A stretch of 64,000 nt of DNA from Zeimonas sediminis. GTDB lineage: Bacteria; Pseudomonadota; Gammaproteobacteria; Burkholderiales; Burkholderiaceae_E. The stretch is taken from contig NZ_JAMQYE010000001.1 of NCBI RefSeq assembly GCF_023721795.1, positions 1,550,001 to 1,614,000 of the forward strand, given 5' to 3'. The notes under the pieces are model-generated. The model did no database searches and was not told the origin of the DNA. It saw only the letters and a program-made list of their open reading frames with translations. Positions 24,781-48,248 of the stretch are shown one piece after another (position 1 is the first letter of the stretch; each line of letters starts with the position of its first letter). Both the position numbers and the translations under genes were made by a program.

Positions 24781-25499
24781 TGGAAGCCTCCCGGACGAGC
24801 GGCGCTGCGCGCGCGGTCGTGCTGCTGTCCGGCGGGCTGGACTCCGCGACCGTGCTGGCGATCGCCCGCTCGCGCGGCTTCGAGTGCTACGCGCTGTCGG
24901 TCGACTACGGCCAGCGGCACCGGGCCGAGCTCGACGCCGCCGTCCGCGTGGCCGGCATGCTCGGCGCAACGCGCCACGTGATCGCCGAGGTCGACCTGTC
25001 CCGCTTCGGTGGCTCGGCCCTAACCGACGCCTCGATCCCGGTGCCCGAGGCCGACGCGCCCGCACCGTCCGGCCCGACCGCGTCGATCCCGGTCACCTAC
25101 GTGCCGGCCCGCAACACGATCATGCTGTCGATCGCGCTGGGCTGGGCCGAGGTGCTCGGCGCCGACGACATCTTCTTCGGCGCCAACGCGGTCGACTACT
25201 CCGGCTACCCGGACTGCAGGCCCGAATACGTCGAGGCCTTCGAGCGCATGGCCAACCTGGCCACCAAGTCCGCGGTCGAGGGCCGCGCGCTGCACGTGCA
25301 CGCGCCGATCATCCGGTTGTCCAAGGCCGAGATCATCCGGCAGGGCGCGCTGCTCGGCGTGGATTTCTCGCAGACGGTCAGCTGCTACCAGGCCGACCAT
25401 GCCGGCCGGGCCTGCGGACGCTGCGATTCCTGCCGGATCCGACGCGAGGGTTTCGCGGCGGCCGGCCTTCCCGACCCCACCCGTTACCAGCCGGGCTGA
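24780..25499 (+). CDS. queC: 7-cyano-7-deazaguanine (preQ0) synthase
   Basis: 239 residues. The N-type ATP pyrophosphatase P-loop is [10 protein letters not shown], followed by [29 protein letters not shown] is family-specific. The C-terminal zinc site has four cysteines in [22 protein letters not shown]. It converts 7-carboxy-7-deazaguanine and ammonia to preQ0 for queuosine tRNA modification. The tight overlap after cpoB is common in proteobacteria. queD and queE are not in this window. Confidence 0.95.
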
Positions 25500-25516
25500 G
25501 AGGCCCGTCGCCCGCC

Positions 25517-26632
25517 ATGCCCGACATCGACATCGCCGCCGTGCAGAGCACCGTGGTCTGGGCCACCTTCGCGCTCGCCCTGCTGCTCGGCGCGCTCATG
25601 AACCGCAGCAACTTCTGCACGATGGGCGCGGTCGCCGACATCGTGAACATGGGCGACTGGACCCGGATGCGAATGTGGGCGGCCGCGATCGGCGTGTCCA
25701 TCCTGGGCCTGCAGTTGCTGGCCGTCGCCGGGCTCGTCGACCCGGCCAAGACCATCTACACCGGCTCCAGCTTCACCTGGCTGTCCTACGCCGTCGGCGG
25801 CCTGCTGTTCGGCTTCGGCATGGTGCTGGCCTCGGGCTGCGGCAGCAAGACGCTGGTCCGGATCGGCGGCGGCTCGCTGAAGTCGCTGGTCGTTTTCCTG
25901 GCGATGGGGCTGGCGGCCTACATGACGCTGCGCGGCCTGACCGGCGTTTGGCGGGTCAACCTGCTGGACCCGGTGGCCGTCGCGATCGCGCCGGGCCAGG
26001 ACCTGCCCCGGCTGCTGTCGGGCGGCAACGCAGGCATGCTCGATACGCTGAGGATCGCGCTGGCCGCGGTCATCGGCGGGGGCCTGGTCGCCTGGAGCCT
26101 GGCCAGCCGCGAGGCGCGCGAGCCCGATGCGCTGATCGGCGGCTTCGGCACCGGCCTGGCCGTGGTCGGCCTGTGGTACGTGTCCGGTCACCTGGGCTAC
26201 GTGGCAGAGCACCCCGACACCCTCCAGGAGGCATTCGTCGCCACCAACACCGGCCGCGCCGAATCCTTCACCTTCGTCGCGCCGATCGCGTTCAGCCTGG
26301 AGTTGCTGCTGTTCTGGAGCGACACGAGCCGGATCGTGACCGTGGGCATCGCCGCGGTGGCCGGCATGATCGCCGGCTCCTGCCTGTGGGCGCTGCTCAC
26401 ACGCCAGTTCCGCTGGGAAGGCTTCCGCGGCACCGAGGACACCGCGAACCACCTGGTCGGCGGCCTGCTGATGGGCGCGGGCGGGGTCACCGCGCTGGGC
26501 TGCACCGTCGGCCAGGGCATCAGCGGCCTGTCGACGCTGGCGCTCGGCTCCTTCGTGGCCGTGGCCGCGATCGTGGCCGGCGCGGTGGTCGGGCTGAAGT
26601 ACCAGATGTGGCGAATCGAAAGGATGGGCTGA
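25517..26632 (+). CDS. YeeE/YedE (TsuA-like) sulfur-compound transporter
   Basis: 371 residues with about nine or ten hydrophobic segments, all inner membrane. The family cysteines are present in SNFCTMGAVADIV (N-terminal), LASGCGSKTLVRIGGGSLKS (centre) and LGCTVGQGISGLSTLALGS (C-terminal). In TsuA such cysteines pass thiosulfate through the membrane. The likely role is uptake of thiosulfate or a related sulfur compound; no tusA/yeeD partner is adjacent, so the substrate is unproven. 17 bases after queC; the pairing carries no obvious functional meaning. Confidence 0.82.
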   Translation: MPDIDIAAVQSTVVWATFALALLLGALMNRSNFCTMGAVADIVNMGDWTRMRMWAAAIGVSILGLQLLAVAGLVDPAKTIYTGSSFTWLSYAVGGLLFGFGMVLASGCGSKTLVRIGGGSLKSLVVFLAMGLAAYMTLRGLTGVWRVNLLDPVAVAIAPGQDLPRLLSGGNAGMLDTLRIALAAVIGGGLVAWSLASREAREPDALIGGFGTGLAVVGLWYVSGHLGYVAEHPDTLQEAFVATNTGRAESFTFVAPIAFSLELLLFWSDTSRIVTVGIAAVAGMIAGSCLWALLTRQFRWEGFRGTEDTANHLVGGLLMGAGGVTALGCTVGQGISGLSTLALGSFVAVAAIVAGAVVGLKYQMWRIERMG

Positions 26633-26641
26633 GCCCTCGAT

Positions 26642-26670: not shown

Positions 26671-26718
26671 CGCGAGCTTTCCTGATGACGCGCCGCAGAG
26701 CGCGCCGAACGGAAAACC

Positions 26719-26794
26719 GGGTCGTTAGCTCAGCTGGTAGAGCAGCGGACTTTTAATCCGTTGGTCGCAGGTTCGAATCCTGCACGACCCACCA
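26719..26794 (+). tRNA. tRNA-Lys (anticodon TTT)
   Basis: 76 bases including an encoded CCA end. Acceptor stem GGGTCGT/ACGACCC, D-loop AGCTCAGCTGGTAGAGC, anticodon arm CGGACTTTTAATCCG with TTT, and T-arm GCAGGTTCGAATCCTGC. It is nearly identical to E. coli tRNA-Lys outside the anticodon stem. A promoter lies upstream and a terminator hairpin directly downstream, so it is a single-gene unit. Confidence 0.98.
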
Positions 26795-26800
26795 AATTTC

Positions 26801-26831
26801 AAGGGCTCGGCCGCAAGGTCGGGCCCTTTTT
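26801..26831 (+). terminator. Rho-independent terminator after tRNA-Lys
   Basis: aagggctcggcc - gcaa - ggtcgggccctt gives a 12-bp stem (two G-U pairs), followed by a run of five T. It starts 6 bases after the tRNA CCA end. Confidence 0.8.
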
Positions 26832-26909
26832 GTTCATCCGCGCTCTTTGTTCGCGCGCCCTTGCCTGACGCGGTGATCGGCGGCCTGCGCGTGGCCGGAT
26901 CCGGCCCGC

Positions 26910-28262
26910 TCAATTCCTGGGCGACACCACCCGGAACACCTTGCCGGTGCTCCCGTACGGCCCGAAGGTCTCGTTCGTCAGCAGGTAGAGTTCGCCGCTC
27001 CGATCCTCGGCCAGGCCGATGATCCGGCTGTCGATCACCTGCAGGCGCCGGTAGGGCCACGGCTTTCCCTTCCCGTCGCCGGGCTGCGCGACGAAGACCT
27101 GCCCGCTCGGCTTGCGGAAATCGGCGCTCCAGTCGGTGAACAGCAACCTGCCCCTCAGCTCCGGGATTGCGCTCCCCCGGTAGATGCGCGCCCCGGTGAT
27201 CGCGGTGCCCACGCCGCGGATCCCGAGCTTCGTGTCCGGGTGCGAGGCCTGCATGTTCGGGTACTCGAGCACCGGCATCAGGATCGGCCGGCCGCTCGCG
27301 TCGCGCGACGGGCACGATTGCGGCGGCTGCCGGGGCTTCAAGCGATCGACGCAGTGGGTGCCTTCCATCAGCGGCCAGCCGAAGTTGCCCGGCCCCTCGA
27401 CGCGATACGCGGCCTCCCACAGGGTTTCCGCGACCGCGGTCACGTAGAAGCTGCCGTCCCCGCGATCGAAGGCGATCCGGTACGGGTTGCGAAAGCCCCA
27501 GGCCCAGATCTCCGGCCGTCCTCCGCCCTTCGCGAACGGATTGCCGGCCGGAATCGCGTAGCCCGGGAACCCCCGGTCGACGTCGATGCGCAGGATCTTG
27601 CCGTACAGCGATTCGGTGTCCTGCGCCAGATGGTCCCATGTCAGGGCCTCGCGGGGCACGTCGAAGGCCTGCCAGCGCACCTGCTTGCCGATCCCGTGCG
27701 AGGCGCCGCTGTCGCCCAGGCCGATGTAGAGCAGGCCGTCGGGGCCGAACGCGAGCCCGCCGCCGTTGTGCTTGCGGCTCGGCCAGTCGAGCTCCATCAG
27801 CACGCGCTCTGAAGCCGGATCGATGTGGGACAGATCGCCGGCAGGCGTGCTGAACTCGGAGACTCGCCGGGTGTGGTTCCAGTTGCGGGGCGCGCCGGCG
27901 CGCAGCGGCGCCGAATAGCTGACGAACACCCGGCCGTTGCGCCTGAATTCGGGATGCAGCGCGAAGCCCAGCAGCCCGCGTTCCTCGAAGTCCTGCTCGA
28001 GCTTCAGCATGGCCGGGCGCAGATCGAGGAAGGGCTCTGGCGCAAGCCGCCCGTCGCGCTGAAGCACCCGCACGACGCCGTCCTGCTGGACGATGAGCCT
28101 GCGCCCGCTTCCGTCGGCCGGCTCGACGAACTCGACCGGGGCGGTCAGGCCATCGGCGACCAACTCCAGCGCAAGATCCTCTGCCTGCGCGTGAATCGCG
28201 TGCGCGAGCAGGAACGCGAAGGCGAGCCCAGCCAAGCGGCGGCCGAGAAATCTGGAAGTCAT
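26910..28262 (-). CDS. Exported PQQ-dependent sugar dehydrogenase family protein (GSDH/sorbosone type)
   Basis: 450 residues from the ATG at 28262; another ATG at 28280 adds six residues. A signal peptide (RRLAGLAFAFLLAHAIHAQA) sends it to the periplasm. The six-bladed propeller of soluble glucose dehydrogenases is suggested by LLGFALHPEFRRNGRVFVSYS, RKHNGGGLAFGPDGLLYIGLGD, GKILRIDVD, WAWGFRNPYRIAFD and the final LAEDRSGELYLLTNE. HNGGGLAFGPDG is the typical active-site segment. The likely role is oxidation of a sugar or polyol with PQQ; the substrate is unknown. It stands alone on the minus strand downstream of the cyanophycinase-like gene. Confidence 0.8.
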   Translation of the reverse strand: MTSRFLGRRLAGLAFAFLLAHAIHAQAEDLALELVADGLTAPVEFVEPADGSGRRLIVQQDGVVRVLQRDGRLAPEPFLDLRPAMLKLEQDFEERGLLGFALHPEFRRNGRVFVSYSAPLRAGAPRNWNHTRRVSEFSTPAGDLSHIDPASERVLMELDWPSRKHNGGGLAFGPDGLLYIGLGDSGASHGIGKQVRWQAFDVPREALTWDHLAQDTESLYGKILRIDVDRGFPGYAIPAGNPFAKGGGRPEIWAWGFRNPYRIAFDRGDGSFYVTAVAETLWEAAYRVEGPGNFGWPLMEGTHCVDRLKPRQPPQSCPSRDASGRPILMPVLEYPNMQASHPDTKLGIRGVGTAITGARIYRGSAIPELRGRLLFTDWSADFRKPSGQVFVAQPGDGKGKPWPYRRLQVIDSRIIGLAEDRSGELYLLTNETFGPYGSTGKVFRVVSPRN

Positions 28263-28407
28263 CCGGAGCCCCCCTGTCATTCGCCCTGCCGGTCTCACTG
28301 TGGCGGCCCGCGGGCGACAAGCGCCGCGGCATCGAACCGCAACGTAGATGGTAGCAAGGCCCGCTATCCCGGCAAGGGCCGCTCCGCGGGACGGCCCGCC
28401 GGCGCAC

Positions 28408-31166: not shown

Positions 31167-31760
31167 ATGCCCGTCACCCTCGCCGCCCCGGCCCACAGCG
31201 AACTGATCGTCAGGAAGAGCCGCTTCATCGGCTGCGTGCAGCCGATGGCCGATCGCGCAGGCGCGCTGAAGGTCGTCGAGGCGCTGCGCGCCGGGCACCC
31301 GGGCGCGGCGCACGTCTGCTGGGCCTTGCTGGCGGCCGGCCATTCGGCGGCGGTCGACGACGGCGAGCCATCCGGCACCGCGGGCAGGCCGATGCTCGAC
31401 GTGCTGCGCCACCAGGACCTCGACGGCGTGCTGGCCACCGTGGTGCGCTACTTCGGCGGCGTGAAGCTCGGCGCGGGCGGGCTGGTTCGCGCCTATACCG
31501 ACACGGTCGCGCAGGCGCTGCTCGGCGCCACGAAGGTGCCGATCGTGCGCAGGCGGGCGCTTCGCTGCCGGGTGCCGTACGCGCTGGAAGGCATGGTGCG
31601 GCGCGAGCTGGAGCAGGCCGGTGCCTCGCTCGACGCGGTGCTGCACGGCGAGCTTGTGGAGCTGGAGTTCAGCCTGCCGGAGGACGCAGCCGCGCCTTTC
31701 GTTGCGCGCGTGAACGACCTGGCTCACGGCCGGGCGCTCTGGCCGAGCGACGAGAACTGA
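31167..31760 (+). CDS. YigZ/IMPACT (UPF0029) family protein
   Basis: 197 residues. The signature HSAAVDDGEPSGTAGRPMLDVL followed by VVRYFGGVKLGAGGLVRAYTDT is diagnostic of the YigZ/IMPACT N-terminal domain, and the C-terminal DUF1949-like ferredoxin fold follows. Eukaryotic IMPACT modulates GCN2; the bacterial proteins bind nucleic acid or ribosome-related partners, but the role is not established. The 3' end overlaps the convergent GntR gene by 92 bases. Confidence 0.85.
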   Translation: MPVTLAAPAHSELIVRKSRFIGCVQPMADRAGALKVVEALRAGHPGAAHVCWALLAAGHSAAVDDGEPSGTAGRPMLDVLRHQDLDGVLATVVRYFGGVKLGAGGLVRAYTDTVAQALLGATKVPIVRRRALRCRVPYALEGMVRRELEQAGASLDAVLHGELVELEFSLPEDAAAPFVARVNDLAHGRALWPSDEN

Positions 31761-32508
31761 GCGCGACGGGCTCTTCGCGCAGCAGCTCCCCGTACAACGC
31801 GTTCGCTCGCGCAAGGTGCCGGCGCATCGCGTCCTCGGCGGCCCGCGGGTCGCCGCTCGCGATCGCATCCCGGATCTCGTCGTGCTCGCGCAGCGTCAGC
31901 GACTCGGCGCCGGGCGCGCGCACCAGCGCGCGGTGGTGGCCACTGAGCCAGCGGAACATCGCGTCGACGATGGCAGGGAAGATCGGGTTGCCGGTCATCG
32001 CCGCGATCGCGACGTGGAACTCGCGATCGCCGTCGACGAAGCTCGCGGGGCCTTGGGCAAGGCGCCCTCGAACCTCCGCGAGACGGCGATGCGCGGCCAG
32101 GGCCTCGTCGAGCCGCGCGAGCGCGCTCGCATCGGCCCGCTGCGCGGCGATCCGCGCGATGCCCGTTTCCAGGAACTCGCGCACTTCCTTCAGGTGCTCG
32201 AGCGAGGCCGGATCCATTCGCAGCAAGTGCTGCGCGCCGGCGGCGACCTGCGCGACCAGCGACTCGGCCGTGGGCAGCACCACCCGGGCGCGTTCGCCGT
32301 GGCTCACCTCGACGATGCCGGCGCGCGCCAGCGCGAGCATCGCCTCGCGCACCGCCGAACGGCCCACGCCGTAGTGGTCCATCAGCTCGCGCTCCGAAGG
32401 CAGCTGCTCGCCGGGCAGGATCTCGCGCCTGCGGATCCGCTCGAGCAGGCGCTCGTAGACCTCCTGGTAGAGCTTGCGCCGCTGGATCGGCTCGGGCGCG
32501 GCCGTCAT
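31669..32508 (-). CDS. GntR-family (FadR/FCD type) transcriptional regulator
   Basis: 279 residues. The N-terminal winged helix reads LLERIRRREILPGEQLPSERELMDHYGVGRSAVREAMLALARAGIVEVSHG, typical GntR. The C-terminal FCD all-helical domain carries metal-ligand residues in DREFHVAIAAMTGN and LREHDEIRDAI. About 30 extra basic residues at the C-terminus lie in the overlap with yigZ. It is coupled to the ApnO-like gene: its ATG overlaps that stop codon (both at 32508). It probably represses the adjacent RuBisCO-like cassette by binding the palindrome at 33418-33430, with a sugar acid as inducer (inference). Confidence 0.87.
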   Translation of the reverse strand: MTAAPEPIQRRKLYQEVYERLLERIRRREILPGEQLPSERELMDHYGVGRSAVREAMLALARAGIVEVSHGERARVVLPTAESLVAQVAAGAQHLLRMDPASLEHLKEVREFLETGIARIAAQRADASALARLDEALAAHRRLAEVRGRLAQGPASFVDGDREFHVAIAAMTGNPIFPAIVDAMFRWLSGHHRALVRAPGAESLTLREHDEIRDAIASGDPRAAEDAMRRHLARANALYGELLREEPVALSSRRSARAPGREPGRSRAQRKARLRPPAG

Positions 32509-33341
32509 CAGGTGATGCGCCGGATGCTTTCGGCGATCTCGTCGCGCTCGAACACGCCCAGCCAGTCGTCGCGCAGCAGGCGCGGCTTGCCGAAGGTGAT
32601 CGCCTTGTTGCAGGCGTCGGAGAACGCGCCGGGGATCTCCTCGAAGATCACCGCGGCCAGGATGTTCATGTGCCCGAGCAGGAACTCGCGCGCCGCCTCC
32701 TTCGGCACGCCGCGCTTCACCACCTCGTCCATCGCATCGCGCATCGTGGCAAGCAGCGTGGCGACGACCGTTTCCGACAGGCCCGGCTCGAGCAGCGCCA
32801 TCTGCTCGACCGATACGCGGTAGGAATTCAGCACCGGCGCGTAGATCACCTTCGCGATCGCCTCGCCGACCGCGTAGTGCTCGTCGGGCCCCTGCATCAG
32901 CGCGTTCACGATCGACTGGCGCGCGGCCAGGCCGCCGAAGCGGTCGCGCCGCGCTTCCTCGCTCGCGTCGTCGTTGAAGATCGACGGATGGCACGGGTGC
33001 GTGACGAAGTAGACGAGATCCGGCCGGTCGGGCAGGTGTCCCGCGAACGGCGCGGCCGCGTCCAGCGTGACGACCATCGTGCCGGGCTTCAGCTTGGGCG
33101 AAATCGCCGCGGCGAGCTTGCCGATGATCGTGTCCGGCACCGCCAGGATGACGACCTGCGCGTCGGCCAGCGCGGCATCCTCGTCGACGCAGCGGACGCC
33201 CAGCTCGCGCTCCAGCCGCTCGCGTCCGGCAGGACTCGGCTCCACGTGCCGCACTTCGTACGACGATGCACGCAGGTTGCGCGACAGTCGATGGCCCATC
33301 TTTCCGCCCGCGCCGAACAGCGCGATCGTCGGTTCGTTCAT
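32508..33341 (-). CDS. ApnO-like NAD(P)-dependent oxidoisomerase (phosphogluconate-dehydrogenase-C family)
   Basis: 277 residues. The Rossmann motif is IALFGAGGKMGHRLSRNL (GAGGKMG at residues 10-16). The domain VYFVTHPCHPSIFNDDASEEARRDRFGG and VPKEAAREFLLGHMNILAAVIF match the PF16896-like C-terminal family that includes D-apionate oxidoisomerase ApnO. Known role in that family: oxidation and isomerisation of D-apionate to 3-oxo-isoapionate. Here it is divergent from a RuBisCO-like protein and a DUF1537 kinase, the same set of partners. The exact substrate (apionate or another branched or C4-C5 sugar acid) is inferred from context only. Confidence 0.78.
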   Translation of the reverse strand: MNEPTIALFGAGGKMGHRLSRNLRASSYEVRHVEPSPAGRERLERELGVRCVDEDAALADAQVVILAVPDTIIGKLAAAISPKLKPGTMVVTLDAAAPFAGHLPDRPDLVYFVTHPCHPSIFNDDASEEARRDRFGGLAARQSIVNALMQGPDEHYAVGEAIAKVIYAPVLNSYRVSVEQMALLEPGLSETVVATLLATMRDAMDEVVKRGVPKEAAREFLLGHMNILAAVIFEEIPGAFSDACNKAITFGKPRLLRDDWLGVFERDEIAESIRRIT

Positions 33342-33403
33342 CCGCTTGCTCCTGGTTGGCTCGCTGCGGCCGGTCGCCGGGCGTCGGTACCCGAACCGGC
33401 AGC

Positions 33404-33412
33404 TGCTATGAT
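33404..33412 (+). promoter_or_regulatory. Extended -10 promoter of the RuBisCO-like operon
   Basis: TGCTATGAT: TGn followed by TATGAT (five of six matches to TATAAT). The -35 region is weak, as is usual for extended -10 promoters. The predicted start near 33419 falls in the palindromic operator, so a bound repressor would block initiation directly. Confidence 0.55.
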
Positions 33413-33440
33413 GTCAGCTTATCAGACAAGTACATGACAT
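33411..33440. promoter_or_regulatory. GntR operator: nested palindromes in the divergent apnO-like / RLP region
   Basis: The core is CTTATCAGACAAG (33418-33430), a 13-bp palindrome with one mismatched pair, of the form CTTrTCnGAyAAG seen for FadR/FCD-type GntR proteins. It is flanked by ATGTCA (33411-33416) and TGACAT (33435-33440), a second perfect inverted repeat. It lies between the divergent genes, so one bound GntR dimer could control both directions. Confidence 0.6.
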
Positions 33441-33498
33441 TCAAACAGCGGTCCCGGCGGCAGACTCGCCGGCTCCCCTTCCGAAGACGCGAGAAACG

Positions 33499-34743
33499 AT
33501 GAGCGAACGCATCCACGCGACCTACTGGCTGGAGACCGGCGACGACCCCCGGCGCGCCGCCGACACGATCGCCGGCGAGCAGTCGAGCGGCACCTTCGTC
33601 GCGCTGCCGATGGAGACGCCCGAGCTGAAGGACCGCTCCGGCGCCCGCGTCGAGCGGCTCGAGCTGCTCGAACGGGTGCGCGAGCCGAGCCTGCCGACGC
33701 CGGTACGCGCGCCGCACTACACCCGCTGCCTGCTCGAGTTGTCGTGGCCGATCGAGAATTTCGGCGCTTCGCTGCCGATGCTGATGGCCACCGTGGCCGG
33801 CAACCTGTTCGAGCTGCGCGCGGTCACCGGCCTGCGGATCCTCGACTTGCGGCTGCCGCCGGCATTCGCCGACGCGTACCCGGGCCCGGCCTTCGGCGTG
33901 GCGGGCACCCGCAGGCTCGCCGGCGTGCCGCGCGGCCCGCTCGTCGGCACGATCGTCAAGCCCAGCGTGGGCCTTAGCCCGGAGCAGACCGCGGAGCAGG
34001 TGAAGGCGCTGGTCGAAGGCGGCATCGACTTCATCAAGGACGACGAGCTGCAGGCCGACGGGCCGCACTGCCCGTTCGAGGAACGGGTGAAGCGGGTCAT
34101 GGCGGTCGTGAACGACGCGGCCGAGCGCACCGGCCGCAAGGCCATGGTGGCGTTCAACCTGACCGGCGACCTGGACCAGATGCGCCGGCGCCACGACATC
34201 GTGCTGGCCGCCGGTGGCACCTGCGTGATGGCCTGCCTGAACTCGGTCGGCCTGGTCGGCCTGCACGAGCTGCGCCGCCATTCGCAGCTGCCGATCCACG
34301 CGCATCGCGCCGGCTGGGGCTCGCTGACCCGCTCGCCGGCGCTCGGCTGGGACTACGCGCCATGGCAGAAGCTCTGGCGGCTGGCCGGCGCCGACCACAT
34401 GCACGTGAACGGCCTGGCCAACAAGTTCAGCGAGCCCGACGACAGCGTGATCGCGGCAGCGCGCGCGGTGCTCGCGCCGCTGTGGGCGGACGCGGCGATG
34501 ACCGCGATGCCGGTGTTCAGCTCGGGCCAGACCGGCCTGCAGGCCGCCGACACCCATGCCGCGCTCGGCTGCGCCGACCTTATCCACGCCGCCGGCGGCG
34601 GCATCTTCGGCCATCCGCAAGGCGTTGCCGCCGGCGTCGAGGCGATGCGCGAGGCCTGGGAAGCGGCGATGAACGGCGAGGCGCTCGAGGCGCGCGCCGG
34701 CCGCAACGAGGCCTTGCGCGCCGCGCTGGGGTTCTGGAAGTGA
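33499..34743 (+). CDS. RuBisCO-like protein (form IV; 3-oxo-isoapionate-4-phosphate (trans)carboxylase/decarboxylase type)
   Basis: 414 residues, RuBisCO large-subunit fold. Active-site positions seen: Lys154 (TIVKPSVGLS), carbamate-type Lys180 with Asp182 and Glu183 (FIKDDE), His267/His269 and Arg270 (IHAHRAGWG), His300/His302 (DHMHVNG), loop-6 Lys309 (LANKF), Ser341/342 (FSSGQTG) and the phosphate loop GGGIFGHP (367-372). The lysine two residues after Lys154 in true RuBisCO is Ser156, so CO2 fixation is unlikely. The neighbours (ApnO-like, DUF1537 kinase) match OiaX/decarboxylase RLPs acting on a phosphorylated 3-oxo sugar acid. Overlaps the kinase gene by four bases. Confidence 0.83.
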   Translation: MSERIHATYWLETGDDPRRAADTIAGEQSSGTFVALPMETPELKDRSGARVERLELLERVREPSLPTPVRAPHYTRCLLELSWPIENFGASLPMLMATVAGNLFELRAVTGLRILDLRLPPAFADAYPGPAFGVAGTRRLAGVPRGPLVGTIVKPSVGLSPEQTAEQVKALVEGGIDFIKDDELQADGPHCPFEERVKRVMAVVNDAAERTGRKAMVAFNLTGDLDQMRRRHDIVLAAGGTCVMACLNSVGLVGLHELRRHSQLPIHAHRAGWGSLTRSPALGWDYAPWQKLWRLAGADHMHVNGLANKFSEPDDSVIAAARAVLAPLWADAAMTAMPVFSSGQTGLQAADTHAALGCADLIHAAGGGIFGHPQGVAAGVEAMREAWEAAMNGEALEARAGRNEALRAALGFWK

Positions 34744-36089
34744 GCCGCGACGGCCTGCTGCTCGCCTACTACGGCGACGACTTCACCGGCTCGACCGACG
34801 CGCTGGAGGCGATGACCGCCGCAGGCGTCCCCACGGTGCTGTTCCTCGAAGCGCCCACGCCGCAGGCGCTGGCGCGTTTTCCCGACGCGCGCTGCGTCGG
34901 TCTGGCCGGCTCCTCGCGCGGGCGCGACCCCGCCTGGATGGAAGCCGAGCTGCCCGCCGCCTTCGAGGCGCTCGCCCGGCTCGGCGCGCCGATCCTCCAG
35001 TACAAGGTCTGCTCGACCTTCGACTCCTCTCCGGCGATCGGCTCGATCGGCAAGGCGATCGATCTCGGCGTGGCTCGCATGCCTGGCGACTGGTCGCCCT
35101 GCGTGGTCGGAGCGCCCCGGCTCGGCCGCCTCCAGGTGTTCGGCAACCTGTTCGCGGTCGCCGGCGGCGTCGGGTACCGCCTCGACCGCCATCCGACGAT
35201 GTCGCGGCATCCGGTCACGCCGATGCACGAGGCCGACCTGACGCGCCACCTGGCCAGTCAGACGGCGCGGCCGATCGCGCTGATCGACATGCTCGAGCTG
35301 CGCCGCGGCGACGCGCGGCCGCCACGCGGCGCGGCGGGTGGCGAGGTTCCCGTTGTCTTCATCGACGTCGCCGACGAGCAGACGCTCGCCGAGGCCGGCC
35401 GCATCGTCTGGGAGAACCGCGGCGCGGGCCTCTTCAGCGCTTCGTCGTCGGGCCTGGACTATGCGCTGGCCGCCTGGTGGCGCGCGCGCGGCTGGCTGCC
35501 CGAGCCGCCGGGCCTGCCGCCCGCGAAGGCGGTGCCGGTCATCGGCGCGGTCAGCGGAAGCTGCTCGCCGGTCACCGCCAGCCAGCTGCGCTGGGCGCGC
35601 GCCCACGGCTTCCTGACCGAGCGGCTCGATCTCGGCCGGGCGCTGCCGGGCGCGACACGCGCGGCTGAGGTCGAGCGCGCGGCGCGCGCGGCCGCGAACG
35701 CAATCCGCGCCGGCCGCAGCGCGATCGTGTTCAGCGCCGAAGGCCCCGACGACCCCGCGGTCACCGGGTTCGACGAGACCGCGGCGCGCGCCGGCCTGTC
35801 CCGGGGCGACGCGGCCCGCGGGGTCGGCGAATGCCTGGCGGACGTGATGCGCGGCATCCTGGTCGAAGCCTCACCGAAGCGCATCGTCGTGGCCGGCGGC
35901 GACAGCTCGGGCGAAGTCGCCTCGGCGCTCGGCATCGAGGCGCTGACCGCGCAGGCCGCGATCGTGCCCGGAGCGCCGCTGTGCCGCGCCTGGAGCGCGG
36001 ACCCGTCCCGTGACGGCCTCGAGATCGTCCTGAAGGGCGGCCAGATGGGCGGCGAGGACTTCTTCGGCAAGGCGCTCGGGCAGGGCTGA
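34740..36089 (+). CDS. Four-carbon acid sugar kinase family (DUF1537), OiaK-like kinase
   Basis: 449 residues with a GTG start overlapping the RLP stop (GTGA). The N-terminal DUF1537 motif is LAYYGDDFTGSTDAL (residues 9-22), and VCSTFDSSPAIGSIGKAID gives the substrate loop. The C-terminal nucleotide-binding domain has SGSCSPVTASQLRWA, IVVAGGDSSGEVASALG and VLKGGQMGGEDFF. DUF1537 kinases phosphorylate sugar acids such as threonate, denbinobate and 3-oxo-isoapionate. In this cassette it would make the phosphorylated substrate used by the RLP. Specificity is inferred from neighbours. Confidence 0.82.
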   Translation: MSRDGLLLAYYGDDFTGSTDALEAMTAAGVPTVLFLEAPTPQALARFPDARCVGLAGSSRGRDPAWMEAELPAAFEALARLGAPILQYKVCSTFDSSPAIGSIGKAIDLGVARMPGDWSPCVVGAPRLGRLQVFGNLFAVAGGVGYRLDRHPTMSRHPVTPMHEADLTRHLASQTARPIALIDMLELRRGDARPPRGAAGGEVPVVFIDVADEQTLAEAGRIVWENRGAGLFSASSSGLDYALAAWWRARGWLPEPPGLPPAKAVPVIGAVSGSCSPVTASQLRWARAHGFLTERLDLGRALPGATRAAEVERAARAAANAIRAGRSAIVFSAEGPDDPAVTGFDETAARAGLSRGDAARGVGECLADVMRGILVEASPKRIVVAGGDSSGEVASALGIEALTAQAAIVPGAPLCRAWSADPSRDGLEIVLKGGQMGGEDFFGKALGQG

Positions 36090-36146
36090 GCGATACTGCC
36101 GCCGACGCGCTTCACTTCGACCACCGCTCCAGCGAACGAGACGACC

Positions 36147-36545
36147 ATGCAAGCCCTGATCGACCGCATCGACCACATCGTGCTGACCGTGACCGACATC
36201 GAGGCCACCACCGCGTTCTACGAGCGCGCCTTCGGCTTCGAGCGCGAGTTCTTCCGCGGGCCCGAGGGCCAGCCCCGCCACGCGGTGCGCATGGGCGGCT
36301 TCAAGATCAACCTGCAGGACTCGGCCACCGAGACGCCGACCAAGGCGCGCGTGCCCACGATCGGGTCCGGAGACTTCTGCATGATCGCCTCGGTGCCGCT
36401 CGACGACTTCATCGCGCACCTGAAGGCCGAGGGCATCCCGATCGACACCGGGCCGGTGTCGCGGCGCGGCGCGCTCGGGCCGATCCGCTCGGTCTACCTG
36501 CGCGACCCCGACGGCAACCTGGTCGAGGTCGCCGAGTACGTCTAG
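36147..36545 (+). CDS. VOC (glyoxalase/dioxygenase) family protein
   Basis: 132 residues, a single vicinal-oxygen-chelate domain: IDRIDHIVLTVTDIEATTAFYERAFGFE at the start (first metal His) and VYLRDPDGNLVEVAEY at the end (metal Glu). It resembles virulence-protein-like VOC enzymes. 57 bases after the kinase, so possibly the last gene of the RLP operon. A role in opening or isomerising a keto-sugar product is conceivable, but nothing in the sequence proves it. Its stop is 4 bases from the convergent SDR gene. Confidence 0.8.
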   Translation: MQALIDRIDHIVLTVTDIEATTAFYERAFGFEREFFRGPEGQPRHAVRMGGFKINLQDSATETPTKARVPTIGSGDFCMIASVPLDDFIAHLKAEGIPIDTGPVSRRGALGPIRSVYLRDPDGNLVEVAEYV

Positions 36546-36549
36546 AGGC

Positions 36550-37638
36550 TCAGCGCGGCGGCAGCCACTTGCGCTCCTGGAAGCGCCGGATCAGCCGCAC
36601 GAACATCTCCTCGGTGTCCACGCAGTCCTGGAAGCCCGCCTGGCGCGCCTTGATCGTGCTGGCGAGCGCCGGCACCGAGGCCAGCGCGTCGCCATAGGCG
36701 AAGTTCCGGTCGGCGTACTGGAAGGACAGCCCGACGAAGTCGCGCAGGCTCTCGGGGGACTGCAGGCCGTGCCTGCGGTGGATCGCGCTCCACTGCGCCT
36801 GACGCTTCGGCATCTCCTGCGCGAGCGACATCGGCGACGGATCGCCGACCTTCATGCCGAAGGCGTCGGCGATCGCCGGCCACACCGTGGCCCACTCGAA
36901 GGCCTCGCCGTTGTTGATGTTGAAGGTCTCGTTGCGGCAGGCGGGCGTGGTGGCCGCCCATGCGCAGGCGCGGGCCAGCAGGTCGGCGTCGACCGCCTGC
37001 ACGATGCGCCGCGCCCCGCCCGGGTAGGACAGCGGCTTGCCCTCTTCCTTCAGCAGCGCCGCGTACACGCCGATCGCCGGGATCGGGTTCATCGCGCTGC
37101 CGATCGACTCGCCGAAGACCACCTGCGGCCGCAGGATCGTGAAGTGCCAGCGACTGCCGGCCTGCTTCTCGCGCAGGTAGTCTTCCTGCAGCCAGTAGAA
37201 GTTCTCGTGCGGATGCCGCGGCCAGCGCTCGCGGGCCGGCACCGGCACCGGCTCGACGTGCACGCCGTAGGCCTTCGTGCCCTGCAGCAGCGTCACGTGC
37301 TCGAGCCGGGGCGCCGCCTGCAGCAGCGGATCGAGCAGGTTGCGCAGCATCGCGTCGTTGACGCGCATCTGCTCGGGGTCGCGCCAGCCGGCCACGAGTT
37401 CGTCCTTCTCGTACAGCGCCGCGTACAGCACGTGGGTGACGTCGGCCATCGCGCCGAAGACCTCGGCGCAGCGCGCCCGGTCGGTCAGGTCCACCGACAC
37501 CAGCGCCGCGTCGTCGAGGCCGGGTGGCCGGCGGCGCGACACGCCGACGACTTCCCAGTCGGGCAGGGAACCGAAATGGCGGATCGCGGCGAAGCCGACC
37601 AGGCCGGACGCACCGGCCACCAGCACCTTCCTCTTCAC
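36550..37638 (-). CDS. SDR-family enone reductase-like protein (PRISE / progesterone 5-beta-reductase type)
   Basis: 362 residues. The Rossmann motif is VLVAGASGLVGFAAIRHF (GASGLVG) and the TxxxKxYG-like block is LLQGTKAYGVH. The active-site Tyr lies in ENFYWLQEDYLREKQ, which matches the FYxxED pattern of PRISE enzymes. NNGEAFEWATVWPAIADAFG is also family-typical. PRISE proteins reduce activated C=C bonds of enones with NADPH. It starts 37 bases after livF on the same strand, so it is the last gene of the Liv transporter operon; the transported compound may be its substrate. Confidence 0.76.
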   Translation of the reverse strand: MKRKVLVAGASGLVGFAAIRHFGSLPDWEVVGVSRRRPPGLDDAALVSVDLTDRARCAEVFGAMADVTHVLYAALYEKDELVAGWRDPEQMRVNDAMLRNLLDPLLQAAPRLEHVTLLQGTKAYGVHVEPVPVPARERWPRHPHENFYWLQEDYLREKQAGSRWHFTILRPQVVFGESIGSAMNPIPAIGVYAALLKEEGKPLSYPGGARRIVQAVDADLLARACAWAATTPACRNETFNINNGEAFEWATVWPAIADAFGMKVGDPSPMSLAQEMPKRQAQWSAIHRRHGLQSPESLRDFVGLSFQYADRNFAYGDALASVPALASTIKARQAGFQDCVDTEEMFVRLIRRFQERKWLPPR

Positions 37639-37675
37639 TGTCGAATCCCCCTCGCCGCGCCGGCCCGCCCGGCGC

Positions 37676-38383
37676 TCAGAAAAGCTCCATCAGCCTGACG
37701 TGGTCGCCGAGCGGCGCGGGATCGCCGTCGTAGATCTTCTGCCCGGTCTTGAACACCGCGGCGCGGTGCGCGATCGGCAGGCTGGCCTTCACGTTCTGCT
37801 CGATGATCAGGATCGTGGTGCCCATCGTGCGGTTGATCTCGGCCACGCTCTGCATCACCTTGTCGACCAGGTTGGGGGCCAGGCCGATCGAGGGTTCGTC
37901 GAGAAGCATGAAGCGCGGCGCGTGCATCAGCGCGATGCCGATCGCGAGCATCTGCTGCTGGCCGCCCGACATGGTGCCGGCCAGCTGCGCGCGACGCTCG
38001 GCCAGGATCGGGAACATCGAGAACACCCGCTCGCGGCGCTCGTCGAGCTTCGAGCGATCGTGCTCGACGAAACCGCCGAGCTCCAGGTTGTCGGCCACGC
38101 TGAGCGTGCGGAACACCCCGTGCCCCTGCGGCACGAAGGCGAAGCCGTCGGCCACGTTGCGCGCCGGCGAGCGGCCGGTGATCTCCCGCTCGCCAAGCCA
38201 GACGCGGCCCGCCTGCGGCTGCAGCAGGCCGAACAGCGCGCGGGCGAAGGTGGTCTTGCCGGCGCCGTTGTGCCCGAGCAGCAGCACGATGCTGCCGGCC
38301 GGCACCTCCAGATCGATGCCGTCGACGACGCGCTTCTTGCCGTAGCCCGCCGCGAGCCCGCTGACCTTCAGGGACACGCTCAT
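37676..38383 (-). CDS. livF: Branched-chain-type ABC transporter ATPase LivF
   Basis: 235 residues, normal LivF length. Walker A is LLGHNGAGKTT, the signature is MSGGQQQMLAIGIALM, Walker B is FMLLDEPS, and the H-loop region is ILIIEQNV. It powers uptake with the fused LivMG protein. The ATG overlaps the livMG stop by four bases. The substrate is not necessarily an amino acid: Liv-type systems in catabolic clusters often import aromatic or other organic acids. Confidence 0.92.
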   Translation of the reverse strand: MSVSLKVSGLAAGYGKKRVVDGIDLEVPAGSIVLLLGHNGAGKTTFARALFGLLQPQAGRVWLGEREITGRSPARNVADGFAFVPQGHGVFRTLSVADNLELGGFVEHDRSKLDERRERVFSMFPILAERRAQLAGTMSGGQQQMLAIGIALMHAPRFMLLDEPSIGLAPNLVDKVMQSVAEINRTMGTTILIIEQNVKASLPIAHRAAVFKTGQKIYDGDPAPLGDHVRLMELF

Positions 38384-40050
38384 TTGAAGTACCGCTCCGA
38401 AAGCTCCGGGTCGCGCATCAGCTCCTCGGGCGTGCCCTCGGCGAGCTTGCGGCCCTCGTCGAGGAACACGACGTGGCTGCACAGCTCGCGGATCACGTCG
38501 AGGTTGTGCTCGATGATGCACAACGTGCGACCCGACTCGGCCAGCCTGCGGAAGATCGGCAGCACCCTGGCCAGCGCGTTGGGCGCGAGGCCCGACAGCG
38601 GCTCGTCGAAGAGCAGCGCCTCGGCGCCGGTGGCCAGCAGGCGCGCGACCACGAGCAGCTTCTCCTCGGCGTACGAGAGGTCGGACGCTAGCTCGCCCGC
38701 GCGTTCGCCCAGCCCCACGAACTCGAGGATCGCCATCGCGCGGGCCAGGTTCTCGCGCTCCTCGCGGCGGACCACCCACGGCATGAAGTAGACGTGGAAC
38801 AGCCTGTCGCCGCGCTGATCCGGCAGGGCCACCAGCACGTTCTCGAGCACGGTCAGGCCGGTGAACAGCTTGAGGTCCTGGAACGAGCGCGCCACGCCGG
38901 CGCGCACGATCTGGTGCGGCTTCAGGCCCTTCAGCGAACGGCCGCGATACGTGACCTCGCCCTCGTTCGGCTGCAGGAAACCGGTGAGCAGGTTGAACGC
39001 GGTGGTCTTGCCGGCGCCGTTCGGGCCGATCAGCCCGGTGATGCGGCCGGGCGGGATCGTGATGTCGACGCCGGACACCGCGACGATGCCGCCGAAGCGC
39101 TTGGCCAGCCCCTTGCCCTCGAGCGAGGCACCGGCCAGCTGGGTCGCCACCGGCGGGCGATCGGGCGGCGCACGATAGTGGCTGGCCGAGGCAGACTCGG
39201 GCAGCAGGCCCTGCGGCCTGAGCCGCAGCATCACGATCAGCAGCAGCCCGTACATCATCTGCCGGACCTTGTCGGCGATGTCCGAGGGCATGTCGACGAA
39301 CTTCAGCAGCTCGGGAAGCACCGCGAGCACCACGGCGCCGACCAGCGAGCCGGCCAGGTTGCCGGTGCCCCCGAGGATGACCATCGCGAGCAGGTAGATC
39401 GTGAGCTCGACCGTGAAGCTCTCCGCCGACACGAAGGTCACGTAGTGCGCGTACAGCGAGCCGGCCACCGAGGCGAGCGCCGCGGCGATCGCGAACACCC
39501 AGAGCTTCATCGCGACCACGTTCTTGCCGATCGCCTGCGTGGCCGCCTCGTTCTCGCGCATCGCCTTCAGCGCGCGACCGAAGGGGGAGGCGCCGAGCCG
39601 CCATGCGATCGCGTAGCAGGCCACCGCGAAGGCCACCGCGAGCGGCAGGAAGCTGCCCGGCGAATCGAGCGCGACGCCGAACAGCTCGATCCGCGGGATG
39701 GCCCGGATGCCGTCGGTGCCGCCGGTCATGTCGGTCCAGTTCAGCAGCACCGTGGTCACGATGATCTGCAGCGCCAGCGTGACGATGACCAGGTAGTCGC
39801 CGCCGATGCGCAGCGCCGGCAGCGCGATCAGCACGCCGAGCGCGGCGGTGACCAGGATCCCGGCGATCAGCGGCAGCGGAAACGGGATGCCGTAGGTGGC
39901 CGCGAGGATCGCGGTGGCGTAGGCGCCCACGCCGAAGAAGGCCGCGTGGGACAGCGCGAACAGCCCGGCGTAGCCGATCAGCAGGTTGAAGGAGCTGGCC
40001 AGGATCGCGTAGAGCGACACCATGACCGCGACGTGAAGGACGTAGTCCAT
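38380..40050 (-). CDS. Fused ABC transporter permease-ATPase LivM-LivG
   Basis: 556 residues in one frame. The N-terminal LivM permease covers about 1-282, with eight or more TM segments and the EAA-like ALKAMRENEAATQAIGKN loop. A short polar linker (284-305) follows, then the LivG ATPase (306-556). Walker A is GPNGAGKTT (342-350) and Walker B is LLFDEP (479-484). The ABC signature is SDLSYAEEKLLVVARLL, with SYAEE in place of SGGQQ, as in many LivG proteins but more diverged. Such fusions occur in several beta- and alphaproteobacterial Liv systems. No frameshift is needed to join them. Confidence 0.9.
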   Translation of the reverse strand: MDYVLHVAVMVSLYAILASSFNLLIGYAGLFALSHAAFFGVGAYATAILAATYGIPFPLPLIAGILVTAALGVLIALPALRIGGDYLVIVTLALQIIVTTVLLNWTDMTGGTDGIRAIPRIELFGVALDSPGSFLPLAVAFAVACYAIAWRLGASPFGRALKAMRENEAATQAIGKNVVAMKLWVFAIAAALASVAGSLYAHYVTFVSAESFTVELTIYLLAMVILGGTGNLAGSLVGAVVLAVLPELLKFVDMPSDIADKVRQMMYGLLLIVMLRLRPQGLLPESASASHYRAPPDRPPVATQLAGASLEGKGLAKRFGGIVAVSGVDITIPPGRITGLIGPNGAGKTTAFNLLTGFLQPNEGEVTYRGRSLKGLKPHQIVRAGVARSFQDLKLFTGLTVLENVLVALPDQRGDRLFHVYFMPWVVRREERENLARAMAILEFVGLGERAGELASDLSYAEEKLLVVARLLATGAEALLFDEPLSGLAPNALARVLPIFRRLAESGRTLCIIEHNLDVIRELCSHVVFLDEGRKLAEGTPEELMRDPELSERYFK

Positions 40051-40053
40051 GAA

Positions 40054-40914
40054 CTAGCGCCCTCCGAACAGGCCGCGCGGCCGGAACAGCAGCACGATGA
40101 ACAGCACGACGAAGGCGACCGAGCTCTGCCACTCGGTCGGAATCCTCACCATGCCGGTGCTCTCGATCAGGCCGAGCGCCAGCCCGCCGATGACCGCCCC
40201 GCGCAGCGAGCCGACGCCGCCGACCACGACCGCCACGAAGGCCATGAACACGGCCAGGAAGCCCATGTGCGCGGTGGCGCCGTCCTTCACCAGGATCAGC
40301 GTGGCCGGCACCGCGGCGATCGCGGAGCCCAGCGCGAAGGCGATCACAGAGACCCTGACCGTGTCGATGCCGATGATCCTAGCCATCTCGGCGTTGTCGG
40401 TCATCGCCAGCACCGCCTTGCCCATCCGCGTGCGGGTCAGGTAGACGCCGACCGCGGTGGCCACGATCGCCAGCGCCGCCACCTGCGCGAGCTGCACGCC
40501 GGTGACCACCAGCGGACCCCACAGGAAGATGCCGCCGGGCGGGGACGGCACCACCTTGGTGTCGGTGCCGAACACCACGCCGATCGCGTTCTCGAGCAGG
40601 ATGAACAGCCCAAGCGACGCGATCAGCACGACCAGCGAGGTGCTGCCCCGCTTCTCGAACGGCCGGTACACGACCAGGTAGGCCAGCACGCCGGCGATCG
40701 CGCCGGTGGCGACGCCGGCGACTCCCGACAGCCAGAGCGGCGCGCCCATCGACGCCGCCAGCCAGCTGCCGTAGGCCGACAGCGCGTAGACCGGGCCGTA
40801 GGCGAAGTGGACGACCCGGGTGGTGCCGAAGATCAGTCCGAAGCCCAGCGCGAGCAGCGCGTAATGGCTGCCGTTGACCAGGCCGTTGACCACCAGCTGG
40901 GCGAGCAGGTCCAA
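40054..40914 (-). CDS. livH: Branched-chain-type ABC transporter permease LivH
   Basis: 286 residues with about eight hydrophobic helices. The family motifs are LVNGLVNGSHYALLALGFGLIFGTTRVVHFAYGPVY at the N-terminus and GKAVLAMTDNAEMARIIGIDT, the cytoplasmic loop that contacts the ATPase. It pairs with the LivM half of the next gene to form the membrane channel. Spacing to livMG is 3 bases and to the binding-protein gene 49 bases. Confidence 0.93.
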   Translation of the reverse strand: MDLLAQLVVNGLVNGSHYALLALGFGLIFGTTRVVHFAYGPVYALSAYGSWLAASMGAPLWLSGVAGVATGAIAGVLAYLVVYRPFEKRGSTSLVVLIASLGLFILLENAIGVVFGTDTKVVPSPPGGIFLWGPLVVTGVQLAQVAALAIVATAVGVYLTRTRMGKAVLAMTDNAEMARIIGIDTVRVSVIAFALGSAIAAVPATLILVKDGATAHMGFLAVFMAFVAVVVGGVGSLRGAVIGGLALGLIESTGMVRIPTEWQSSVAFVVLFIVLLFRPRGLFGGR

Positions 40915-40963
40915 TCGGGTCTCCCGATGCCGTAGAGGGCGGCGCGTGTCGGTCCGGCTTCGA

Positions 40964-42118
40964 TCAGTCGGGCTTCACGAAGGACTGGAATTTCTTCTCC
41001 CCGCCCTCGACCTTGAACAGCCCCACCCGCTTCTGCGCGACGCCGTTCGGCTGGAACACCATCTGCCCGCCGTAGACGCTGTCGAACTTCGGGTCGTCGT
41101 ACAGCGCGGCCTTCATCACCTCCGCGTCCATGTAGTCGCCGCCCTTGGCCTTCGCGCGCTTCAGCAGCTCGGCGATCAGGTAGACGCCCTCGTAGTAGTT
41201 GGCCGCGTAGAAATCGGGCTTGGTGCCGTAGCGTTTCTCGTAGTCGGTGGCGAACTGCTTGGACCACGGCTGGTCGTCGGAGGGCTGGAAGTAGTCGTTG
41301 ATGAACAGGTAGCCCTCGCCCTGGGCGCCGGCGATCTTCGCGTCGTTCTGCGTGTACTCGACGCCGATGATCGGCTGCTTCATGCCGAAGTCGCGGATCC
41401 GCTTCACTGCCAGGCCCACCTCGGGCGTGAACATCCACAGCGCGATCGCATCGGGGTTGGCGGCGCGGATCTTCGCGATCTGCGTGTCCATGTTGGTGAC
41501 GCCCTGCGGCACCGCCTCGATCGCGACCACCGAACCGCCCGCCTTCTCCCAGTAAGGCCTGGTCGCGCGCACCACGCTGTCGCCGGCGTCGTTCTTCCAC
41601 TGCAGCATCGCGAGCTTCTTCGCGCCGGTCGACTTAAGGTGAGCGACCGCGGCCAGGCCGAGGTCGGCGGCCAGCGATCGGTTGTGGAACATGTACTTCG
41701 AGACGCCGACCAGGCTGTTCGACACGCCCCCGCCGTTCAGCAGGAAGATGTGGTGCTGGTCCGCCAGCGGTGCGACCGCCTGCGTGGGCGCCGAGAACGA
41801 GGTCATCACGATCTTGACCTTGTTGATCGTGATCAGGCGGTTCATCGCGGAGACCGCCTCCTGCGCGTTGCCCGACTTGTGGTCCTCGATCACCGCCTCG
41901 AGCTTGATGCCGTTGACGCCGCCCTTGGCGTTGATCTCGTCGACCGCCTGCTTGATGCCCTGGCTCATCACGGTGCCGTAGAAGCTGGCCTGCCCGCTCA
42001 TCGCGAGGATGGCGCCGATCTTGTAGGTCTGGGGATCCTGGGCCGATGCGGTGCCGAAGACCGAGGCCGCGGACAGCGCCGCGACGAGCACCGGAAGCCT
42101 GCGCTTGAGCTGGAACAT
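40964..42118 (-). CDS. Periplasmic substrate-binding protein (LivK-like)
   Basis: 384 residues. The ATG at 42118 gives a clean signal peptide (MFQLKRRLPVLVAALSAAS...TASA). The type I periplasmic-binding fold is seen in YKIGAILAMSGQASFYGTVMSQGIKQAVDEINAKGG, IEDHKSGNAQEAVSAMNRLI and VEYTQNDAKIAG. The first gene of the livK-livH-livMG-livF-SDR operon, with a consensus promoter and palindromic operator upstream. The ligand is unknown. The partner genes (two acyl-CoA ligases, an enone reductase) suggest a carboxylic acid. Confidence 0.88.
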   Translation of the reverse strand: MFQLKRRLPVLVAALSAASVFGTASAQDPQTYKIGAILAMSGQASFYGTVMSQGIKQAVDEINAKGGVNGIKLEAVIEDHKSGNAQEAVSAMNRLITINKVKIVMTSFSAPTQAVAPLADQHHIFLLNGGGVSNSLVGVSKYMFHNRSLAADLGLAAVAHLKSTGAKKLAMLQWKNDAGDSVVRATRPYWEKAGGSVVAIEAVPQGVTNMDTQIAKIRAANPDAIALWMFTPEVGLAVKRIRDFGMKQPIIGVEYTQNDAKIAGAQGEGYLFINDYFQPSDDQPWSKQFATDYEKRYGTKPDFYAANYYEGVYLIAELLKRAKAKGGDYMDAEVMKAALYDDPKFDSVYGGQMVFQPNGVAQKRVGLFKVEGGEKKFQSFVKPD

Positions 42119-42186
42119 GATCGTCTCCTCTTGTGGATGCCGGCACGGCGGCACCTGCGTGCGCCTTTTTCGGTCGCCGCGTTGAT

Positions 42187-42211
42187 GTTTCATTGAATGA
42201 AACAATGAAAC
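42187..42211. promoter_or_regulatory. IclR-type operator at the Liv operon promoter
   Basis: GTTTCATTGAATGAAAC (42187-42203) is a perfect 17-bp palindrome. A further direct half-site AATGAAAC follows at 42204-42211. It lies just downstream of the Liv promoter start point, a position suited to repression. The same core occurs in front of iclR. Confidence 0.7.
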
Positions 42212-42220
42212 TGCATTAGG

Positions 42221-42250
42221 ATTCTAAGCGCCAAATTCGGCAGTGGTCAA
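42221..42250 (-). promoter_or_regulatory. Sigma-70 promoter of the Liv transporter operon
   Basis: On the minus strand: TTGACC (42250-42245), an 18-base spacer and TAGAAT (42226-42221). Transcription would start near 42214, about 95 bases before the binding-protein ATG and at the edge of the palindromic operator. Confidence 0.65.
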
Positions 42251-42276
42251 TGCGCGGCCCGGATCCCGCCGAAGAC

Positions 42277-42291
42277 TTTCAATCGATGAAA
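42277..42291. promoter_or_regulatory. Second, diverged copy of the IclR-type operator
   Basis: TTTCAatcgaTGAAA: the same 15-base span and the same outer arms as the core of the Liv operator, with a changed centre. It lies on the ligase side of the divergent region, about 93 bases before the ligase start. Confidence 0.45.
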
Positions 42292-42383
42292 CCGCCCCGG
42301 ATTGGCGATCCGGAGTGCGGGCGCGCCGGCCGCCGCCGGCGCCCCGCGGCGCTGCCGGCCGCTCAAGACGGATGGAGACCAGG

Positions 42384-44003: not shown

Positions 44004-44083
44004 ACGTCATTTCGCTCTTCGAAACCTTCGAGGAACTCGATTGACGCGACTCGACGCGGCCCCTAGCATGAATCCGCGCATGG

Positions 44084-44105
44084 GTTCATTGAATGAAATT
44101 TCATT
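44084..44105. promoter_or_regulatory. IclR-type operators upstream of iclR
   Basis: Two overlapping palindromes: GTTCATTGAATGAAA (44084-44098, perfect except for the outermost pair) and AATGAAATTTCATT (44092-44105, perfect). They end 12 bases before the iclR ATG and share the core of the Liv-operon operator. This fits autorepression by the IclR protein. Confidence 0.65.
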
Positions 44106-44117
44106 CGAGGCATCGTG

Positions 44118-44945: not shown

Positions 44946-44993
44946 GCGCCGACCGCTGACTCCCACACACGCATCGACGCCGAGGCGACGACC

Positions 44994-47075: not shown

Positions 47076-47214
47076 GGCGCCGGCTGGCTGTCCGCAGGAC
47101 GTGCCGTTTCCAGGCCGCGCAGGCGGGTCCCGCCCCGGCCGCATGGCATCATCCGGCAACCCGGACACTGGCCGCGCCCAGTGCCTTCGCCTCGCTCCTC
47201 CTGCCCCTGCCCGC

Positions 47215-48232: not shown

Positions 48233-48248
48233 TTGCGAGGGAACCCAC

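Follow-up and report, generated by a model that had tools for sequence, protein, structure and literature searches.

Gene content of the cassette

In the window analysed here, a 64,000-nucleotide stretch of Zeimonas sediminis (C1:1550001-1614000 of a 3.86 Mb genome), a cassette of five genes that includes a form IV Rubisco-like protein (RLP) lies at 31669-36545, and a role in the catabolism of D-apionate, an unusual branched acid derived from a plant sugar, is proposed for it below. All five are open frames with clear family matches in domain and profile scans, arranged in a minus arm (ApnO, then GntR/FCD) and a plus arm (RLP, kinase, VOC):

31669-32508, minus strand: GntR/FCD regulator (PF00392 and PF07729; NF003011, 274.2 bits)
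32508-33341, minus strand: ApnO-like protein, putative D-apionate oxidoisomerase (PGDH_C; PF16896, 233.9 bits)
33342-33498, no strand: divergent intergenic region of 157 bp between the two arms, with a candidate operator within
33499-34743, plus strand: form IV RLP, putatively OiaT-type (PF00016/PF02788)
34740-36089, plus strand: putative OiaK, 3-oxo-isoapionate 4-kinase (DUF1537; NF042436, 774.9 bits)
36147-36545, plus strand: VOC (glyoxalase-fold) protein (PF00903, 51.3 bits)

The ApnO stop and the GntR/FCD ATG start overlap as TGATG, and the kinase GTG start overlaps the RLP stop as GTGA (the mechanical open reading frame of the kinase begins at 34362). The joint occurrence of these five genes, as listed in the original prediction made from the letters of the window, was borne out by frames and family matches. 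OiaT denotes the RLP transcarboxylase/hydrolase, and in P. sprentiae the names ApsD and ApnL are applied to the Gfo/Idh/MocA protein and to a protein of 653 aa, respectively; compared loci and genomes carry L and G numbers.

The kinase scored over the cut-off of the OiaK model NF042436 (774.9 versus 700 bits). No NCBIfam model matched ApnO, whose activity as a D-apionate oxidoisomerase is predicted from sequence likeness: it shares 72% identity with the Xanthobacter (G073) protein, 70-74% with the homologues in the apiose-type clusters of R. etli (70%), P. kirstenboschensis, and P. sprentiae (74%), and 54% with the one in Microvirga; against PDB 5t57 it scored 453.8 bits. The GntR/FCD regulator scored over the NanR subfamily model NF003011 (274.2 versus a cut-off of 260), which was taken as no more than a subfamily label, since PGAP names the regulators of apiose-type clusters likewise. 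This protein would probably repress both arms. Within the shared intergenic region, positions 33407-33438 match Zeimonas arvi exactly and contain CTTATCAGACAAG, a candidate operator. As a lineage-wide regulator site the pattern of this Zeimonas block was rejected (two occurrences in 86 loci, and also 2 in shuffles); among the genes checked, it lay upstream only of Z. arvi ApnO and RLP, which is one shared site.

Lineage and residue pattern of the Rubisco-like protein

In the known chemistry, ApnO converts D-apionate to 3-oxo-isoapionate and OiaK phosphorylates this to the 4-phosphate, from which either CO2 is lost (OiaX) or 3-phosphoglycerate and glycolate are formed (OiaT). The best NCBIfam model for the window RLP was OiaX (NF042437), at 445.9 bits below its cut-off of 700, and no transcarboxylase/hydrolase model matched in the NCBIfam scans of the window and Xanthobacter RLPs. 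Across the 151 genomes of the family of genome G121, RLPs over the OiaX cut-off occurred in 26 (731-797 bits), with the other full-length RLPs of the window's kind at 380-454 bits to OiaX and true Rubiscos lower. Such an RLP was also present in 4 of 14 Xanthobacter genomes (421-431 bits, 0 over the OiaX cut-off), where the other matches of the RLP search (127-138 bits) were taken as Rubisco.

In a careful tree of 35 RLPs, the window falls into a clade of 12 (100/100) shared with Z. arvi, four Xanthobacter RLPs, and six more, and five OiaX fall into a separate clade (100/100). Constraining the window and Z. arvi with the five OiaX to one clade was rejected (approximately unbiased (AU) test, p 1.3e-4), as was a constraint that joined the window and Z. 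arvi to five sister-clade rows (p 6e-10). The same picture came from a quick tree of 61 rows that included Rubisco and one MtnW-like row. The original prediction had called for such a phylogeny and named a grouping with methionine-salvage enolases as its refutation; the RLP did not group with the MtnW-like row and lay apart from OiaX too. Hence, the RLP is best read as a member of the OiaT lineage (predicted 3-oxo-isoapionate-4-phosphate transcarboxylase/hydrolase) and not as OiaX. The nearest locus, that of Z. arvi, has an RLP at 91% identity to the window's and identical to that of G007 from the same genus, which places the window in Zeimonas (Burkholderiaceae).

Identity as a methionine-salvage enolase (MtnW) would be consistent with the common superfamily and with weak matches to both MtnW models, yet these lie well below the cut-offs (TIGR03332, 157.9 versus 513.6 bits; NF007095, 192.3 versus 409 bits), the neighbours are sugar-acid genes, and the RLP did not group with the single MtnW-like row, whose own placement is unsure given its long branch and which scores below its cut-off; we regard this identity as highly improbable. 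A second RLP-like gene lies elsewhere in the genome (C1:2698627-2699883; L122:4628-5884, minus strand) near GSDH-type and enoyl-CoA hydratase genes; it scored 138.2 bits to an MtnW model (cut-off 409), and KDDH replaces KDDE in it.

A 28-row alignment shows that the window RLP retains the Rubisco residues E60, N123, K175, K201, D203, E204, H294, R295, H327, and K334, with K177 replaced by S; the roles considered here for these residues are those they have in Rubisco. At E60/N123/H327, a survey of 144 distinct RLPs (the window's and those of 143 loci, another 3 of the 146 loci being without an RLP above 150 bits) gave E/N/H in the window and in 112/112 others and D/G/Q in 31/31 OiaX-type RLPs, of which 27 were assigned by scores over the cut-off and 4 by record name; 34 of the 112 were scored, all below the OiaX cut-off, and the remaining 78 were unscored. 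This split fits the OiaT reading in that OiaX has altered three residues that Rubisco uses and the window RLP has kept them.

The same split bears on a rival in which the RLP is a divergent OiaX that only decarboxylates 3-oxo-isoapionate-4-phosphate. Such a protein would sit well with OiaX as the best NCBIfam model and with ApnO and kinase partners, which are common to OiaX clusters, but the score (445.9 versus 700 bits), the separate clade (AU p 1.3e-4), E/N/H instead of D/G/Q, and the genes for triose-phosphate isomerase (TIM) and RpiB, found in 0 of the 45 clade loci described below, make it improbable.

A more tentative idea, to which we give somewhat less than even odds, is that E60/N123/H327 act as a switch, changed together to D/G/Q in the sister decarboxylase OiaX, and that the window RLP belongs to a large catabolic group still running the carboxylation and hydrolysis of Rubisco with CO2 that the same active site has set free. 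If so, swapping the three positions would be expected to convert a transcarboxylase/hydrolase into a simple decarboxylase and expose the Rubisco residues that serve only CO2 addition and cleavage; the triad would also allow the Rubisco residues for CO2 addition and hydrolysis to be told directly from those for enolisation. The three-residue split is the most useful point, and perhaps a new one, in a cassette that is otherwise largely ordinary.

A sister clade of RLPs carries N in place of K177 (L022, L023, L025, L140, and L210-L213). In 7 of these 8 K177N-type loci a VOC gene of about 180 aa lies near the RLP, with TRAP-type genes and no ApnO, and it stands directly before the RLP in the annotated L023, L025, and L140; on the haloarchaeal plasmid of Natronosalvus rutilus (L022:8605-12695), a VOC gene lies two genes upstream of the RLP-kinase pair. 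The IIKPN motif of this clade also occurs in PDB 3nwr.

Neighbourhoods of relatives and genomic context

A FastTree clade of 46 RLPs including the window's (support 0.93) supplied 45 other loci for comparison, whose flanks vary and are in part short, and absences from which are not proof. The kinase was present in 45 of them and adjacent to the RLP in 44, ApnO in 39, a NanR-type regulator in 37, an MFS transporter in 22, and a VOC of the window type in 1. Because the kinase (45/45), its adjacency to the RLP (44/45), and ApnO (39/45) recur in this way, the cassette is more than a chance gathering. ApsD and ApnL occurred in the same nine loci, all nine also with ribose-type ABC genes, and no apiose genes were found in the available flanks of the other 36, i.e., their lack is common in the window's RLP lineage. 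TIM and RpiB were found together in 5/31 OiaX-type loci versus 0/112 others (Fisher p 3.7e-4, with rows that are not independent), and pyruvate kinase (pyk) in 5/104 K177S-type, 0/8 K177N-type, and 0/31 OiaX-type loci, with eno and ppc in one locus.

In the window genome, the query with the lactonase ApnL gave no match (SMP-30-type lactonases were not sought), and the apiose dehydrogenase ApsD gave a best match of 34% over residues 17-161 of 364 (145 residues); one of these genome-wide searches had no positive-control genome, though its query matches clade loci at 34-69%. The original prediction was therefore right that an apiose dehydrogenase and a lactonase are not adjacent, and the dehydrogenase plus apionolactonase by which D-apiose catabolism would be recognised were not found in the genome. 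A query with the usual MFS transporter gave only a partial match of 24%. Because the lactonase query gave no match and the dehydrogenase query only a partial one, the compound taken up is probably apionate itself or some other precursor, with apionate uptake as the simplest reading. GlcD-like genes are present in the genome (best 505.8 bits versus a cut-off of 567.9) and could take glycolate; among the compared loci, the GlcD query matched one E/N/H locus and one OiaX-type locus. About 90 kb before the window, OtnK- and OtnC-like genes (57% and 65%; L126:6913-8816) belong to a separate 3-oxo-tetronate route.

The borders of the cassette were drawn against the Z. arvi locus (L026), which matches the window at 24028-26635, 26710-28284, 31167-36539, 47213-48233, and 48258-48666. 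For the part from about 36540 to 47213, nothing corresponding was found at the syntenic position of Z. arvi; it holds PRISE-type short-chain dehydrogenase/reductase (SDR), LIV-type ABC, AMP-binding, and ATP-grasp CoA ligase genes and is perhaps a separate catabolic module. The PRISE-type SDR and LIV-type ABC genes (36550-42205) were considered as cassette parts and rejected because they lie inside this block; PRISE and LIV binding-protein queries matched 0/45 clade loci, of which one (L054) does carry genes for a permease and an ATPase of the LIV type (33-42%).

By sequence, the nearest solved relatives of the VOC protein are STM3117 (3hnq, 119.3 bits) and GLOD5 (3zw5, 110.7 bits), for neither of which, to our knowledge, a reaction is settled. 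Among the 18 Zeimonas genomes, the RLP was seen in 2 and the kinase-VOC junction in 3 (window, Z. arvi, and G006), with the VOC gene behind the kinase in all three. G006 is 68% complete and without an RLP match; one of its contigs begins within a kinase that shares 86% identity with that of the window, and continues as in Z. arvi. Behind the VOC, both Z. arvi (L026:11273-13505) and G006 (L218) carry genes for an LldD-type FMN hydroxyacid dehydrogenase and for a TRAP binding protein, which could serve glycolate oxidation and uptake. Homologues of the VOC at about 50% or less are found in many relatives, and a copy at 79% in G052 lies in 15 kb without a match to the other queries of the same search. 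As a pathway marker the VOC was rejected, the window type occurring only in Z. arvi among the 45 clade loci.

Annotated plasmid records mostly name such RLPs 'ribulose-bisphosphate carboxylase large subunit family protein'; clade, context, and triad taken together would give OiaT-type RLPs a name of their own and prevent their being mistaken for CO2 fixers.

Proposed pathway and comparison with known systems

We read the cassette as one for D-apionate catabolism via the transcarboxylase/hydrolase (OiaT) branch, with GntR/FCD repressing both arms, at a probability of about 0.74. Its genes, their order, the RLP lineage, the residue pattern, and the neighbours of relatives are direct observations, from which we infer substrate, reactions, and repression. 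ApnO would oxidise D-apionate and shift its carboxyl group to give 3-oxo-isoapionate, which OiaK would phosphorylate at position 4. The RLP would then remove the carboxyl group, leaving an enediol, re-add CO2 on the neighbouring carbon, and hydrolyse the carboxylated product to 3-phosphoglycerate and glycolate, the addition of CO2 and the hydrolysis being steps of Rubisco itself. The products would reach central metabolism without the TIM and RpiB steps found beside OiaX in some clusters, and the GntR/FCD protein would act on both arms from the common 157-bp region. The sequence of oxidation/isomerisation, phosphorylation, and cleavage and the link to D-apionate, both already proposed in the original prediction, gained support from the kinase score over the OiaK cut-off, the ApnO identities, and RLP relatives within complete apiose-type clusters.

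Several points weigh against this reading. The genome searches gave no apiose-side genes and no near relative of the usual MFS transporter. Glycolate-oxidation genes, tried as a marker, were rejected for lack of enrichment (LldD-type in 2/104 K177S-type, 0/8 K177N-type, and 1/31 OiaX-type loci). The absence of TIM and RpiB from the window says little, given that 26/31 OiaX-type flanks are also without them, and, because the 31 OiaX-type RLPs form one clade, D/G/Q probably goes back to one ancestral change. The activity of the RLP is itself a prediction from its lineage, and G073 is only presumed to be the assayed X. autotrophicus strain. Finally, the E/N/H group is mixed: the 104 K177S-type loci comprise 64 with ApnO alone, 12 with ApnO and SDR, 13 with SDR alone, and 15 with neither, and such RLPs with SDR but no ApnO (13/104 K177S-type, 4/8 K177N-type) indicate that the substrate does not follow from the residue pattern.

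In an alternative, the same reactions would take place on a different branched sugar acid (such as D-hamamelonate or a homologue), and the VOC would adapt the route. It would accommodate a genome without apiose-side genes in the searches made and related E/N/H RLPs with different neighbours (SDR, alpha/beta hydrolase, TRAP, pyk: L021, L017, L142), and PMC8914248 reports that an Ochrobactrum RLP takes part in hamamelose assimilation and links it to 3-phosphoglycerate and glycolate. We nevertheless hold it to be unlikely, as the kinase scores over the OiaK cut-off, the redox partner is ApnO and not an SDR, SDR_G1DH and ABhyd queries gave no kept match in window positions 24001-52000, and nine close relatives lie within apiose-type clusters. 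A hamamelose-type cluster, which by our own deduction would have an SDR and a lactonase-type hydrolase next to the RLP and kinase, was thus not found in that range. RLP-kinase pairs with an SDR were seen in L017, L020, L021, L142, and L143, some also with an alpha/beta hydrolase, a TRAP transporter, and pyruvate kinase, and are perhaps hamamelose-type.

A literature search on apionate combined with RuBisCO-like found nothing, and the available parts of PMC8920986, PMC6404388, PMC12999727, and PMC8319343 hold nothing further on window-type RLPs. The accessible part of a review (PMC6302742) attributes the D-apionate pathway with the RLP transcarboxylase/hydrolase of Xanthobacter autotrophicus to Carter et al. 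2018, and states that the RLP of A. radiobacter K84 decarboxylates and that of X. autotrophicus ATCC BAA-1158 transcarboxylates/hydrolyses.

Among solved structures, the RLP nearest to the window's is PDB 3nwr (377.9 bits), which differs in having the sister-clade motif noted above. The Ochrobactrum anthropi D-hamamelose RLP (Kim et al. 2018) shares with the window RLP the link to 3-phosphoglycerate and glycolate, which for the window are the expected products, but is named an oxygenase in the title of that paper, and no SDR or hydrolase of the hamamelose sort was found near the window cassette. The R. etli OiaX cluster (L024, L220) shares ApnO (70%), kinase (43%), NanR-type regulator (46%), and RLP (45%) with the window, and differs in an OiaX over its model (785 bits) with D/G/Q and in adjoining TIM, RpiB, ribose-type ABC, and Gfo/Idh/MocA genes. 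RHE_RS26630 (R. etli CFN 42 p42f, L220), the annotated OiaX of such an apiose-type cluster with TIM and RpiB, is reported in the available part of PMC8914248 as a biotin-independent carboxylase-like RLP; in the same part, CO2-uptake counts are higher in the CIAT652 (L221) mutant than in the wild type, though the text says diminished. Compared with the Xanthobacter locus (G073), the window block has GntR/FCD and VOC genes and is without the MFS gene that adjoins ApnO there, and both loci hold the three enzymes side by side, at identities of 72% for ApnO, 72% for RLP, and 67% for the kinase.

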